From positions 62,001-126,000 of the forward strand of contig JACQZU010000020.1 of NCBI GenBank assembly GCA_016213735.1: a stretch of DNA of 64,000 nt, read 5' to 3'. The translations under genes and the position numbers were made by a program. Under the pieces are notes generated by a model. That model saw only the letters and a program-made list of their open reading frames with translations. It was not told the origin of the DNA and made no database searches. Shown here in pieces: positions 45,741 to 55,171 of the stretch. How positions within the stretch are numbered: position 1 is the first letter of the stretch; each line of letters opens with the position of its first letter. The stretch is from Acidobacteriota bacterium (lineage in GTDB: Bacteria > Acidobacteriota > Holophagae > Holophagales > Holophagaceae).

Positions 45741-47786
<2,046 letters not shown>

Positions 47787-49854
47787 CCGGACCATCGTCC
47801 ATCGTTCGCCCCGCCGGGTGGAGGGACTTGTCAGAGGCGCCTGGGCTTTGCTCCTCTCCCAGGAGCCCCTGCAGTTCACGGAGCAGGTCCAGGGCGGCGT
47901 AGGGTTTGGAGACCACGGCCGAGAATCCGAATTCCCTCGGCCGGGACATGACAGGGTCCGCGTTGTAGCCGCTGGTGACCATCAGCAGCGCCCCGGGGTC
48001 GAGGGCGAGAATGCCGCGGGCCGCCTCCTTCCCACCCATGCCCCCGGGGATGGTCAGGTCCATGATGGCGGCGCGGAAGGGCTTCCCCTCCTTGAGCGAG
48101 GTCTCCCAGGCGGACACGGCGGAACGGCCGTCCAGGGCGGTTTCGACCTCGAACCCGAAGTGCTCCAGGATTTCCCTCGTGGTATCCAGGATGATGGGGT
48201 CGTCGTCCATCACCAGGATGCGTCCCGCTCCCCTGAAGGGGAGAGGGGGGGCCGCGGGTTGGCTTCCGGTCAGGGGAGATTCCGTGGCGGGCACATGGAG
48301 GGTGAATTCGGTCCATTCTCCCGGGACGGATTCGACGCCGATGCACCCTCCATGGGAGCGCATGATGTTGTAACTGCTGGCCAAGCCGAGCCCATGGCCC
48401 CCCGGCTTGGTCGTGAAATAGGGCTCGAAGATTCGATCCATCAGTTCGGCCGGAATCCCCGGGCCCGAATCCCGGATCCGGATGACCACGAAGGGACCGG
48501 GAGACACGGGCAGGGCGTTCCCCTCGGGCACCACCACATTCTGTGCCGTGATGTCGATTCTCCCATCGCCATCGATGGCTTGCACGGCATTGAGGGTGAT
48601 GTTGTGGACGACCTGGGAGAGCAGGCCCGGATCCACCTCGGCGTTCCAGAGATCGCCAGGGAAATCGTAGGTGCATCCCACGCTTCGCCCCCGGAGGGCC
48701 AATTCGGAAGCCTCCCGGACGAGGTCCTGCAATGCGGTCACCCGCCTCACCGGCTCCCCGCCCTTGGCGAAGACCAGCAACCGGAGGGAGAGATCCTTGG
48801 CACGTTCGGTGGCCTGGACGGCCTGGCGGATGCGCGTTGCGATGCGATGGTCTCCGACCGGGTATTCCAGGGCCAAGGTCAGGTTCCCCAGGATTCCGGA
48901 AAGGTAGTTATTGAAATCGTGGGCGATGCCTCCGGCCAGAACCCCCAGGGACTCGACCTGTTTCACCCTGAGCAGGTCCGACTCCGTGCGGATCTTTTCG
49001 GTGATGTCCCGAATCACGAACACCGTTCCTCCCGCTCCCCGATGAGGGTCGGTGAACGCGGAGCGACGTTCCTCGAGGATCCGCTCCCGTCCCTGGGGAT
49101 CCGTGAGTATCCCGTAATGGGCCTGACCGGTACCTCCAGAGACTCCATGGACCCTGGGCCGGTAGACCTCCTCCAGCGGGAGACCGATGCATCGGGAGGA
49201 TTCCCGCCCCAGCATGCGGCCGGCCATGGGGTTCATGAAGGCGATGCGCTGATCCTGGTCCACGGCGATGACGGCGTCCTGGATGGCCCGGAAGGCCGCC
49301 AGGGAGAGCGCCCTTTCGTCCTCGAAGTCGGAGAGTACCTGCTCCAGGATCCGGACGGGGATGAAGCGGAAGAGCAGGAGCAGGAGGGCCCCCAGGACAA
49401 GGCCCAGCATTCCGGCCAGGAGGACGAATCCCGCTTCGCGGCTCACCGATCGACGGCACTCCAGGTACGCCACAACCTGTCCGGAATCGTGCACGGGAAC
49501 GGTGGACCGGATGCTCGGGCCTGTCATCCCGGGGTCCCATTCCACCAGCACCGTCCCGGAGATCCCCCGGAGCACCCGGGTTTCCAGGGCACCCCCGACC
49601 GGGGCCTCCGACAGCACTTCCTGGAGGCGCAGACTCTCGTACTCCCAGAGGGCAGGCCGGGCCACCACGATCCGCTCCACCGACCGTGCCAGGAGGCTGG
49701 CCTCCGCTTCCAGCGTCCTTCGGGCCCCTCCGAAGGAAACCAGAGCCTGGCTCAGGGGGAGCACCAGCAGCACCAGCGACGCGGCCGCGAGGCCTGCCCA
49801 CTGCATCAACCTCGATGCGGGGCCCGACTCGGAGGCAGAGGCAGTTCCAGGCAT

Positions 49855-51039: not shown

Positions 51040-52683
51040 GTGAAGAAACTCATCGTCCGGGCCCCCGGGCAGCCTCCCAGGACCTTCGAGTACGAGGGTC
51101 CCCGTCTGGCGATCGGGCGTTCCGCCAAGAATGACCTGGTCATCGAGGACCCCAGCCTGAGTCGCAGCCACGCCCGGCTGGAAGCCCAGGAGGATTCCTA
51201 CCTCCTGGAAGACCTGGGCTCCCTGAACGGGAGTTTCGTGAACGGCCAAGCCATCCAGGGCAGGCACCCCGTGAAACCCTCGGACCGGATCCAGTTGGGA
51301 AATGTTGTTCTCGAATTGGACCCGGAACGCCCCTCCGGCGTGCTGATCGAGACTCGGGAGCAGAGCCTCAAGGGCCCGGCCACCCTGGTGATCCGGGCCT
51401 CGGACCTCCGGAGCAGCGGCCCCCTGGCCCAGGTCGAACGGGTGGGGGGAACCGCCTGGGGGGACGCCATCCAGCTCGTGGAGGAGATCACCCTGGACCT
51501 TCTTCACGAGGGCCCCGTGGAACAGCACCTCGAGGGGGTGATGGACCGGCTGTTCACCTTCCTCAAACCCGACCGCGGAGCCCTCCTCCTGCGGGATCAG
51601 GCCGGGGAGCTCAAACCCGTGGTAACCCGAAGCGCCGGGAAGGAATCCCAGATCAGGATCAGCCAGACCCTGGTCGAGGCCGTGGTGGAGCGGTGCGAAG
51701 CCCTGCTGGTGAATGACCCGACGCTGGATCCCGTGCTCTCCGCCGCGGCTTCGATCCGGCTCAGCGGAGTCTCCACCCTGATGGCCGCTCCTCTGGAACA
51801 CGGGGGGGAGGTGATCGGCCTGATCTACCTGGATGCCAAACCCTACCGGGGGGCCTTCACACGGGAAGAACTGAGGCTGGTGGCCTCCATGGCCCACGTG
51901 GCAGCCGCCAAGGTGCTCCAGGCCCGGCTCATCGAGGAGGTGCAGGCCAAACGCCTCATGGAGCGGGAACTGGCCCTGGCCCGTGAAATCCAGCAGCGCC
52001 TCCTCCCGGAAAGTGCCCCGGCCCTGAAGGGGTTCGAACTTCGGGGAATGAACCAAGCCTCCCGGCAAGTCTCCGGGGACCTGTTTGGATACTGGACGCG
52101 TCCCGACGGGAAGGTCTACGCGATCATCGCCGACGTCTCGGGCAAGGGCATCGGGGCAGGACTCCTCATGGCCAGCCTCCAGGCGACCATGGAGGTCCTG
52201 GCCGCGCGACTCCTGCCGACGGGGGCTCTGGCCGGAGAACTCTCCCAGATCCTCCACCGTCACACCACCACCAACCGATTCGTGACCTGCTTCCTGGTGC
52301 TACTGGACCCCGAGCAAGGGAGCATCCAATTCACGAATGCCGGCCACAACCCCGGCCTGCTCTTCCGGAGTGACGGTTCCATCGAGGCCCTGGAATCCCA
52401 CGGAACTCCCCTCGCCCTGCTCTCCGGTACGACCTATGGCCAGGACGAGCGGAACCTGGGGGCAGGAGATCTGCTCGTCCTCTACACCGATGGCATCACC
52501 GAAGCCTGCGACGCCATGGGCAATGAACTGGATCTGGCGGGACTTCGCGCCATCATCAGTCCCATCAGGACCCGCCCCCTGCACCACCTCGAACAGCAGG
52601 TGGAGGAGGGCCTGGAGGCCTTCACGGGCAGCCAGCCCCCCTCCGATGACCGGACCCTCCTGCTCATCCGGAAAAAACGGTGA
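51040..52683 (+). CDS. FHA-GAF-SpoIIE/PP2C phosphatase
   Basis: This is a 547-aa cytoplasmic signalling protein. An N-terminal FHA domain (LAIGRSAKNDLVI, LSRSHARLE, LGSLNGSFVNG) binds phosphothreonine. A GAF domain follows (about residues 150-305). A short linker helix (MERELALAREIQQRLLPE) leads to a PP2C-type SpoIIE phosphatase with GDLFGYW, IADVSGKGIGAGLLMA and DLLVLYTDGITEA metal sites. RsbU-type phosphatases act on anti-anti-sigma partners; none is adjacent. The start is GTG at 51040. The yhbY-like gene starts four bases after its stop. Confidence 0.9.
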   Translation: MKKLIVRAPGQPPRTFEYEGPRLAIGRSAKNDLVIEDPSLSRSHARLEAQEDSYLLEDLGSLNGSFVNGQAIQGRHPVKPSDRIQLGNVVLELDPERPSGVLIETREQSLKGPATLVIRASDLRSSGPLAQVERVGGTAWGDAIQLVEEITLDLLHEGPVEQHLEGVMDRLFTFLKPDRGALLLRDQAGELKPVVTRSAGKESQIRISQTLVEAVVERCEALLVNDPTLDPVLSAAASIRLSGVSTLMAAPLEHGGEVIGLIYLDAKPYRGAFTREELRLVASMAHVAAAKVLQARLIEEVQAKRLMERELALAREIQQRLLPESAPALKGFELRGMNQASRQVSGDLFGYWTRPDGKVYAIIADVSGKGIGAGLLMASLQATMEVLAARLLPTGALAGELSQILHRHTTTNRFVTCFLVLLDPEQGSIQFTNAGHNPGLLFRSDGSIEALESHGTPLALLSGTTYGQDERNLGAGDLLVLYTDGITEACDAMGNELDLAGLRAIISPIRTRPLHHLEQQVEEGLEAFTGSQPPSDDRTLLLIRKKR

Positions 52684-52687
52684 CCCG

Positions 52688-52984
52688 ATGCTCACCCCGA
52701 AGCAGCGACAGCACCTCAAGGCCCTGGCCCACCCCCTGAAGCCCCTGCTCCGGGTGGGCAAAGGGGGATTCAGCCCCTCGCAGGCCGAGGAGCTCGAGGG
52801 CCTCCTGGAGGCCCACGAACTGGTGAAGGTCAAGCTGAACCAGAACACTTTCGAGGACGCGGGCTCGATGCTGGCGGCTCTCCAGGCCCGGATCGAGGGC
52901 CTCGAGCACGTCTGGACCATCGGCCATACCCTGCTCCTCTTCCGACCGAGCCGCAACAAGCCGACCCGGTACCCCCTTTCCTGA
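52688..52984 (+). CDS. yhbY: YhbY/CRM-domain RNA-binding protein
   Basis: This is a 98-aa CRM-domain protein that binds pre-50S ribosomal RNA in its known relatives. It has LTPKQRQHLKALAHPLKPLL, the GxxG-like VGKGGFS loop, HELVKVKLNQN, and IGHTLLLFRPS. It sits between two FHA-GAF signalling genes with a four-base gap upstream, so it is likely in the same transcript as the phosphatase. The functional link is unclear. Confidence 0.9.
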   Translation: MLTPKQRQHLKALAHPLKPLLRVGKGGFSPSQAEELEGLLEAHELVKVKLNQNTFEDAGSMLAALQARIEGLEHVWTIGHTLLLFRPSRNKPTRYPLS

Positions 52985-53044: not shown

Positions 53045-55171
53045 TTGAGCTATATCTCCTGGCTGGAAGGGGGGCACCTTCACCGCCATTTCCTGCAGGA
53101 GGACTGTTTCCTGGGGCGCGACCCTCTGCTCTGCGCCGTGGCCAACCCCAGGGAGGAAAGCCTTTCCCGGAAGCACGCCGCCCTCACCCGAATCGGAGAA
53201 ACGTGGTGGGTCCGGGACTTGGACAGCCTGAACGGATCTTTCATCAACGGCCTCCGCGTGAACACCCCCATGGGGAACGGCCTCCAGGACGGGGATGAAC
53301 TCCGCTTCGGGGACTGGACCCTCACCTTCACCGATGGGTTCCCCGGACTGGAGTCGGAGCATTTCGTCGAGCGGGTTGGGACGATCTTCGAGGAGGTGAG
53401 GCCCGAACCCCAGCAGGCGATCGTGCTGATGCGAGGCCTGGAACTCCTGCAACGGTGCACCGAATCCCTTCTGGCGGAGAAGGATTCCGACCGGATCCTC
53501 CAGGGCATGCTCGAGGAATCCATCCGCCTTTTCGGCGCGGGTCGGGGCTTCCTGGTGATGCAGGCGCCGGGGCAGGGGTGGCGCACCGCCCACCGGGTGG
53601 GGGACATCCAGGAAAGCCTCGGGCTGTCGAGGACCGTCCTGGACTATGTGGCCACCCACGGGACTGCCGTGCTGTCCAACATGCCCACGATGGATCCCCG
53701 TTTCGGGGGTTCCAGCCTGGTGGAGTTCCAGCGAGGGGCCTTGATGTGCGCTCCGCTGGTGGTGGAAGGCCGGGTGGAGGGGGTGCTCTACCTCGACCGG
53801 GCCCTGGAGGCGGGGGGCTTCATGCGTTTCGACCTCGCTCTTCTGCAGGGCCTGGTGCGCCAGGGGTCCCTCATCCTCCGGCACGCCCAGCTCAACACCC
53901 GTGCCCTGGGACAGGCGGAGCTGGAGGGAGAACTGTTCCGGCTCAAGGCCCTGCACGGCCGAACCGTGGAAGGGGTCGGAGAACTGCTTTCCGCCATGGG
54001 CAGCAGCCTTCGCTGGATCCTGTCCTGGTGCGCCCAGGGAGGGGCCGAGGGCCGAGAGGTCCTGCGCCACCAGGCGGAACGTCTCGCAGCCCTCGTGGAG
54101 GAGGGCCTCCACAACACGCATGTGGACGTTCCCGACCCGGGAACATCCATGCCCCTGCAGAACCTTCAGGGAATCCTGCGACGCCCCTGGGAAGATCTTC
54201 TACGGCTCGGCGGGTCGGACCTCAAGCTCGCCGACCCCCCGCCGGGACAGGTGTGGATCGCCACCAACCACGCCATCCAGGCCCTGGTGGGACTCGTTGA
54301 GCCGTTGCTGATCCAGGCTGGCCGGGGGACGACGGTCGGGGCCTCCTGGGTCCAGGAGCCGGGGACCTGGGTCCTCCGCCTCTCCTTCCCCGAAGGAATC
54401 CACGGCCCCTCGCCGGATCCCTGGACTGCCCGAAGCCTCCTGGACTCGGGGATCCGATGGAAATGGGCCGAGAACACTCTCAGCCTGGCCTTCGCCCAGG
54501 GGCCCGAAGGGGTGCCGGAAGAGAACGCCCGCCCCCTCATGGGGCTGGTGACGGAGGAATACCAGCTCCTCGGGCTGTTCCAGAGCATCGCCGAAAGCGG
54601 GGACCTCAACCTCTTCCCCCTGGAGGCCGCCCCGCCCCTGCCGCCCCTGCCGAGGTTCCGGTACCTGGTGGTGGATGCCGGGGGAATCCAGGATCCCGTC
54701 GCCTGCATCCAGGCCTACCGGCGCCATCCCTCCTTCGTGACCTCCCCCATCCTCGTGGTCCGGGCGCCGGAGGACCTCACCCCTTCCATCCTCGCCGCGG
54801 GGGCCACGGACTGGTTGCCCGAGGGATTCCGGTGGGAGGCGCTCCACAACCGGCTGCAGGTGCTCCGGGGCCACGACGAGCTTCAACGGAAGGCCCTGGC
54901 GGCCGAACGCCTGGACTCCTTTCGCCAGATGGCGGGCACCCTGAAGCATGAGATCAACAACCCGCTCGCCGTGATCTCCATGCAGGTGGAGCTGCTTCAG
55001 CGGAAGTACCCGGAGGAAGTGAAACTGGGGAAGATCGAAGAGATGGTGGACCGGATCCAGGGGCTGGTGCAGGTGCTCCAGAAGATGCGGGAAGCCGCCA
55101 CCGTGGATTACGCCGACGGATCCTCGATCGCCCAGCTTCCCTCACCGCCGACCCGGGGCGCGGCTCCGTGA
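53045..55171 (+). CDS. FHA-GAF protein with pseudo-receiver and C-terminal HisKA-like domain
   Basis: This is a 708-aa multidomain protein. An N-terminal FHA domain (DCFLGRDP, LSRKHAAL, LDSLNGSFINGL) and a GAF domain (about residues 130-285) come first. A poorly conserved helical/ATPase-like region follows (about 300-480). The next section resembles a receiver (FRYLVVDAGG, PILVVRAPED, AGATDWLPEGF) but lacks the acceptor-site acids and the Lys. Last is an HisKA segment with an H-box MAGTLKHEINNPLAVISMQV, after which the protein ends without a canonical ATPase domain. The start is TTG 53045. It probably works with the FHA-GAF phosphatase upstream. Confidence 0.78.
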   Translation: MSYISWLEGGHLHRHFLQEDCFLGRDPLLCAVANPREESLSRKHAALTRIGETWWVRDLDSLNGSFINGLRVNTPMGNGLQDGDELRFGDWTLTFTDGFPGLESEHFVERVGTIFEEVRPEPQQAIVLMRGLELLQRCTESLLAEKDSDRILQGMLEESIRLFGAGRGFLVMQAPGQGWRTAHRVGDIQESLGLSRTVLDYVATHGTAVLSNMPTMDPRFGGSSLVEFQRGALMCAPLVVEGRVEGVLYLDRALEAGGFMRFDLALLQGLVRQGSLILRHAQLNTRALGQAELEGELFRLKALHGRTVEGVGELLSAMGSSLRWILSWCAQGGAEGREVLRHQAERLAALVEEGLHNTHVDVPDPGTSMPLQNLQGILRRPWEDLLRLGGSDLKLADPPPGQVWIATNHAIQALVGLVEPLLIQAGRGTTVGASWVQEPGTWVLRLSFPEGIHGPSPDPWTARSLLDSGIRWKWAENTLSLAFAQGPEGVPEENARPLMGLVTEEYQLLGLFQSIAESGDLNLFPLEAAPPLPPLPRFRYLVVDAGGIQDPVACIQAYRRHPSFVTSPILVVRAPEDLTPSILAAGATDWLPEGFRWEALHNRLQVLRGHDELQRKALAAERLDSFRQMAGTLKHEINNPLAVISMQVELLQRKYPEEVKLGKIEEMVDRIQGLVQVLQKMREAATVDYADGSSIAQLPSPPTRGAAP

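Follow-up and report, generated by a model that had tools for sequence, protein, structure and literature searches.

A Holophagaceae protein family with a decayed kinase-like middle and a conserved C-terminal DHp domain that probably acts on the signals of other proteins

Gene and domain order

The window analysed here, a stretch of 64,000 nucleotides from an Acidobacteriota genome (GenBank assembly GCA_016213735.1, contig JACQZU010000020.1, positions 62,001 to 126,000), carries on its forward strand a reading frame at 53045..55171 that is open throughout and encodes a protein of 708 aa with the order FHA-GAF-pseudoDHp-pseudoCA-pseudoREC-DHp-tail; all features of this gene given below lie on the same strand. 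Translation begins at a TTG codon, which aligns with ATG or GTG starts at the same position in relatives. The N-terminal FHA domain (residues 1-98, 53045..53338), a phosphothreonine-reading fold, is matched by Pfam at residues 23-89 (E 4e-12), and its residues R25, S41 and H44 are kept in at least 90% of 20 members. It is followed by a GAF domain (residues about 122-284, 53408..53896) recognised both by Pfam (residues 149-275, E 4.7e-10) and in the predicted structure. At the C-terminus, residues 627-676 match Pfam HisKA (E 5.7e-9; 36.3 bits against a cut-off of 26.9), and the FHA, GAF and C-terminal H-box domains named in a preliminary description of this DNA are thus matched by Pfam. The Pfam scan of the 708-aa protein gave no HATPase_c and no Response_reg match, and in a scan of the protein against NCBIfam no model reached its cut-off.

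In the AlphaFold2 model of the full-length protein (pLDDT 79, 37 sequences), the FHA and GAF domains are followed by a long helical hairpin (residues 261-329 and 334-357). Next come an alpha/beta domain at 367-485 and a receiver-like one at 498-608, and the chain closes with another helical hairpin (597-683) and a low-confidence tail. VIA-align matches to this full model cover chiefly its FHA, GAF and receiver parts.

The reading frame is a real, conserved gene of the Holophagaceae. The preliminary description had called for a search for the same architecture, and this order, ending at the DHp, is indeed present in dozens of species; since it is found so widely, the architecture occurs beyond chance. 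Conservation was assessed in an alignment of 52 long members (the window plus 51 loci, lengths 684-708 residues) and four short ones, from which any fragment at a contig end or a frame break was excluded. Truncation through a frameshift or sequencing error was considered and rejected, because the 52 members share the stop position and the next gene in the window, on the opposite strand, begins 35 bases downstream. An order-wide search gave some match in 72 of 77 genomes, most of the weaker ones being FHA-GAF proteins only, and a single-sequence scan of a collection of genome contigs returned zero matches.

A degenerate kinase core and receiver

Predicted folds and alignment assign the middle of the protein to a degenerate DHp hairpin (residues 285-357, 53897..54115) followed by a degenerate CA/HATPase-like fold (residues 367-485, 54143..54499). 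Folded alone with AF2, residues 283-492 give a DHp-CA histidine-kinase core (pLDDT 84, pTM 0.74), for which the top Foldseek matches are histidine kinases, ChpT and DivL included. The best VIA-align match of this model is 5c93 (Z 12.1, rmsd 4.8, 176 residues); the CA domain of ThkA on its own (3a0z) aligns with Z 11.7 and rmsd 2.5 over 126 residues. The residues of catalysis have gone. The His position of the pseudo-DHp (about residue 320) is His in none of the 52 members, the Asn pair of the N-box is replaced by Gly416 (51/52) and Pro420 (46/52), and the D-box Asp (position 448) has become Phe or Leu in 50 of 52 and Cys and Met in the remaining two. There is no G2 box and no ATP lid, nor room for one; the motif register was set by profile alignment and by eye. 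The arrangement of an autophosphorylating HisKA kinase, a DHp His followed by a CA with N, G1 and G2 boxes, is therefore absent. When the middle was compared profile to profile with 25 real histidine-kinase cores, the match fell short of significance (E 0.053, probability 1%), so the kinase ancestry of this part rests on the predicted folds. On these models, the middle is read as a dead histidine-kinase-like DHp-CA core in canonical order.

The following domain (residues 495-608, 54527..54868) is assigned by predicted fold and alignment as a pseudo-receiver, with residues 495-618 aligning to the KdpE receiver (4kfc) with a VIA-align Z of 15.8 and rmsd 2.1 over 115 residues. A phosphorylatable receiver has two acids past strand beta1, an Asp past beta3, a Ser/Thr past beta4 and a Lys past beta5; this domain keeps Asp544 at the phospho-acceptor position (52/52) together with Glu or Asp at position 504 (51/52), whereas the first acid is Ser/Thr, the switch Ser/Thr has become Arg573 (51/52) and the Lys position, 593, holds Glu in 45 members, Asp in six and Val in one. 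The charge swap between Arg573 and Glu/Asp593, with the acceptor Asp kept, probably forms an internal, lock-like salt bridge.

These results modify the preliminary description in several respects. It had noted Glu at the expected Lys of the receiver-like part, which is borne out, and the loss of the acidic pocket, which is true of the first acid but not of Asp544 or the acid at 504. Its weak ATPase-like region in the middle does have a predicted CA-like fold, but not the intact N and G boxes. The proposed reversal of domain order falls away, since the folds of residues 283-492 and 495-618 give the normal order of DHp, CA and receiver, and a permuted kinase is likewise not what is found, the middle core having no ATP-binding motifs and possessing a decayed DHp of its own in the normal place.

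An intact C-terminal DHp and tail

The protein ends in an intact DHp/HisKA hairpin (residues 609-683, 54869..55093) that contains the predicted phospho-acceptor His635 (codon 54947..54949) in the motif H-E-I-N-N. Where a CA domain would begin, there is instead a conserved tail (residues 686-698, 55100..55138), and all 52 long members end about 0-10 residues past it. As had been noted from the sequence alone, no ATPase domain follows the last H-box domain: HATPase_c is not matched and the protein stops after the DHp. Residues H635, E636, N639 and P640 are present in all 52 long members and in all four short forms, all of which thus carry the H-E/D-x-x-N/T motif of HisKA kinases, and Tyr689, Gly692 and Ile695 of the tail are equally invariant in the 52, with Tyr689 kept in all four short forms too. 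Omega, computed as pooled Nei-Gojobori values over 418 related, non-independent pairs, is lowest for the last DHp (0.049) and the tail (0.034), compared with 0.137 for the receiver, 0.142 for the GAF domain, 0.232 for the FHA domain, 0.235 for the pseudo-DHp and 0.245 for the pseudo-CA. Judged by this conservation, the last DHp appears to be alive.

A natural deletion separates the two halves of the protein. In four Geothrix relatives (genomes G005, G006, G007 and G012), two of which are Geothrix campi and G. oryzisoli, FHA-GAF is joined straight to DHp-tail in proteins of 376-385 aa. These short forms cluster inside the family (support 97/89) and require one change on the tree, which indicates that the middle was lost once and the DHp and tail were kept, and hence that selection retained the input domains and the DHp. 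The middle, comprising the dead kinase and the receiver, is dispensable, and its deletion alongside the retention of FHA-GAF-DHp-tail marks the DHp as the output.

Genome context

The genome of the window has 48 HisKA and 67 HATPase matches, and when these were paired by place and by eye a HATPase adjoined the HisKA in 47 of 48 cases; the sole HisKA that lacks one belongs to the gene at 53045..55171. Its immediate upstream neighbour on the same strand (52688..52984) encodes what we take to be a YhbY-like RNA-binding protein. This gene adjoins in 47 of the 52 named loci, the contigs of the other five starting inside the gene, and UvrB lies further upstream in many loci. Upstream of the YhbY-like gene, also on the forward strand, the window has an FHA-GAF-SpoIIE (PP2C) phosphatase gene (51040..52683), the FHA-GAF part of which is 26% identical to that of the 708-aa protein. 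Besides the window, 3 of the 52 loci have an FHA-GAF-SpoIIE gene (40-43% identity) ahead of YhbY.

Across the 52 named loci, no kinase or receiver gene is a constant neighbour. The hybrid kinase at 47749-49854, put forward in the preliminary description as a kinase that might phosphorylate the protein, has matches in 12 of the 52 loci at 28-33% identity and in varying places, and was rejected as a partner as the neighbourhood is not conserved. The nearest DHps elsewhere in the window's own genome are distant (best 4.9e-11, against 1.7e-32 for self).

Related CA-less DHp proteins outside the family

A profile of the DHp and tail finds REC-DHp, PAS-PAS-DHp, pseudoREC-GAF-DHp and DHp-tail-REC proteins with a similar tail (domain names by eye, except Pfam in L183). 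Five loci from other Acidobacteriota combine a CA-less REC-GAF-DHp-tail gene with a complete histidine kinase. In four of them, L183 (1120-5173), L184 (1208-5024), L185 (2956-6610) and L187 (2-3743), a complete PAS/DHp/CA kinase follows directly on the same strand, and in L182 (1-5017) one gene lies between the two. A sigma-54 (NtrC-type) response regulator comes after the kinase in all four loci scanned with Pfam (L182, L183, L185 and L187; 10 proteins). In L183 and L185, Pfam also places a flagellar rod protein domain farther along, and these five loci possibly encode a three-part flagellar control system.

The tail motif was counted with a profile cut before the tail and run on the reading frames of the fetched loci. 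Outside the family, 24 of 26 rows without a CA have it, or 22 of 24 if each twice-fetched locus is taken a single time; among the 61 rows of CA-holding length, 4 have it (three CA-less DHp-tail-REC proteins and one chance match). This count is biased, because the profiles used to fetch the loci included the tail. A census of two genomes (G132 and G275), with HisKA and HATPase paired by eye, is less biased: five of 84 HisKA matches had no HATPase. One of these five (L233) has a degenerate region of CA length (230 residues), and the tail occurs in one of the other four (L213), which implies that only part of the CA-less DHps carry the tail. No description of such a tail was found in the open-licence literature on CA-less DHp or HisKA proteins, searched with terms other than the tail motif itself.

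Comparison with known systems

Several known systems resemble parts of this protein. Spo0B, ChpT and PhyT pass phosphoryl groups between receivers through the His of a DHp derived from a histidine kinase, as the Holophagaceae protein may do, and likewise have pseudo-kinase parts, but they carry a degenerate CA straight after the active DHp, where the Holophagaceae protein has only its 13-residue tail. The split kinases CheA3/CheA4 have phospho-acceptor and catalytic domain on separate proteins, as may be the case here, although these belong to different domain families. In REC-DHp-CA hybrids of the LvrB type, a REC helix also runs into a HisKA DHp, and residues 611-676 give a weak NCBIfam match to this type (E 0.0011); unlike these hybrids, the Holophagaceae protein has no CA and its receiver is degenerate. 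EspA, an FHA-containing hybrid histidine kinase of Myxococcus, shares the N-terminal FHA domain, but its partial NCBIfam match (37 bits against a cut-off of 1400) is limited to the FHA domain and a second weak stretch.

CA-less HisKA proteins as such are already catalogued. A SMART-based survey counts 1556 HisKA proteins without HATPase among 42417, 711 of them with the phosphatase motif (PMC3591291), so such proteins make up a few per cent of HisKA proteins. In archaea, 'HisKA, no HATPase' proteins and REC-PAS/GAF-HisKA proteins such as AF_1472 are listed, in an account that describes the receiver-HisKA class as without experimental study (PMC5847659), and P2CS catalogues phosphotransfer proteins and incomplete histidine kinases (PMC2716373). 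The present protein falls among the HisKA proteins without HATPase, with its HisKA above the cut-off and no HATPase match; with regard to the absence of a receiver used in P2CS, Pfam finds no Response_reg, yet the predicted fold is that of a receiver. The proteins in these catalogues likewise have a C-terminal HisKA with a conserved His and no CA, sometimes with a receiver and GAF or PAS domains ahead, whereas FHA-GAF input, a decayed kinase and receiver, a conserved tail, an internal deletion and long-term conservation set the Holophagaceae family apart from them as they are described there (PMC5847659, PMC2716373, PMC3591291). What is new is the conserved family, its natural deletion and a tail held in common with other CA-less DHp proteins, some of which are encoded in one operon with a complete kinase and a regulator of the NtrC type.

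Proposed function and alternatives

The explanation that we somewhat favour is that a former hybrid sensor kinase (FHA-GAF-DHp-CA-REC) was fused to a second REC/DHp-type output and lost its autokinase chemistry, leaving the last DHp as a trans-acting histidine module. Inputs at the FHA (phosphothreonine) and GAF (ligand) domains would travel via helices to a DHp dimer, in which His635 would be phosphorylated by another protein, either the CA of a complete kinase or, by back-transfer, a phosphorylated receiver. From the DHp the phosphoryl group could then go to an unlinked response regulator, which the DHp might also, or instead, dephosphorylate. The tail may stand in for the CA by covering the DHp or docking a partner, and the dead kinase and receiver would act as a regulatory but expendable spacer. 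The best reading of the sequences is thus of a signal-gated, CA-less DHp that would act in trans, through phosphotransfer and/or phosphatase activity on an unlinked receiver or through pairing with a kinase, and the protein probably acts on the signals of others rather than generating its own. This accords with the earlier suggestion of a phosphotransfer or scaffold protein phosphorylated in trans, as no CA follows the DHp and its His, Glu(+1) and Asn(+4) never vary.

In HisKA proteins, Glu(+1) is described as needed for kinase activity and Asn/Thr(+4) for phosphatase activity (PMC3510030). The invariance of both residues suggests that more than dimerisation is at work, and it is on this ground that the protein is taken to be an input-gated DHp phosphorylated in trans. 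The DHp-derived phosphotransferase PhyT, with its degenerate CA, is reported to work in trans (PMC5898713). The five loci of other Acidobacteriota in which a CA-less DHp gene accompanies a complete kinase, with a sigma-54 regulator after it in the four that were scanned, also favour this explanation. On the other hand, a CA-truncated ChrS is reported to function without its His (PMC9491836), so a conserved DHp need not imply phosphotransfer, and dimerisation or folding could by itself account for the invariant residues. It also counts against the explanation that the constant neighbour of the family is the YhbY-like gene rather than a kinase or receiver.

A heterodimer, in which the DHp pairs with that of a complete kinase and is phosphorylated by it or gates it, in the manner of split kinases or of RetS on GacS, is an unlikely alternative. 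Split kinases, and EnvZ with its DHp and CA separated, are reported to be functional, and the same source has HisKA proteins without HATPase proposed as split kinases (PMC3591291). The five operon-like loci described above, with their CA-less DHp gene next to or one gene away from a complete kinase, and the invariance of the kinase-specific E636 would both suit such pairing, but for the present family there is no conserved kinase neighbour and the distance of the nearest DHps in the window's own genome likewise speaks against it. Rather improbable is a DHp that merely strips phosphoryl groups from a receiver as phosphatase or sink: N639 is the +4 phosphatase residue (PMC3510030) and some members of the wider class have no acid at +1 (Ala replaces the Glu after the His in HALAQ of L222 and L225, and L217 and L224 have HNINQ), yet E636, which is dispensable for phosphatase activity, is invariant as well and the His is kept. 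A non-catalytic role, as a scaffold or in reading whether a regulator is phosphorylated, has been proposed for DivL and CA-truncated ChrS; it would fit a middle core and receiver that are dead by motif, the reported His-independent signalling of ChrS (PMC9491836) and the reported case of a repurposed histidine kinase reading a response regulator (PMC4211667), but it is improbable given that His, Glu and Asn are kept without exception in 52 diverged members and four short forms, which goes beyond what dimerisation should require.

Extending the trans-acting DHp to the wider class leads to a more tentative proposal, that a DHp with a Tyr-x-x-(G)-x-x-(M/I)-x-(D/K)-L tail may be a recurrent, self-sufficient CA-less output module for phosphotransfer or phosphatase activity, which in Acidobacteriota and beyond is placed behind inputs of the FHA-GAF, REC, PAS or GAF kind. 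In some operons it would join a full kinase and a regulator of the NtrC type in a three-part system, and in the Holophagaceae family the dead hybrid kinase would be a removable spacer. The family offers a clean test, with its conserved DHp and tail, a natural deletion that separates needed from dispensable parts and named Geothrix strains, and the related operons place a likely kinase and regulator next to the lone DHp gene. Work on this family could reveal if a lone DHp serves as a signal-gated module for phosphotransfer or phosphatase activity, and by what route serine/threonine phosphorylation, read by the FHA domain, might feed two-component signalling.

Further CA-less variants

The bacterial family of the window also has a separate, second family of REC-DHp proteins ending in a KPYA.G.ILDL-type tail (L192, L212, L214, L218, L219, L220, L222 and L225). 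Two further CA-less DHps (L227 and L228) have Asp in place of the phospho-accepting His and keep a tail-like end. Three large sensors (L189, L230 and L231) skip the CA, the DHp and tail being followed directly by a receiver.
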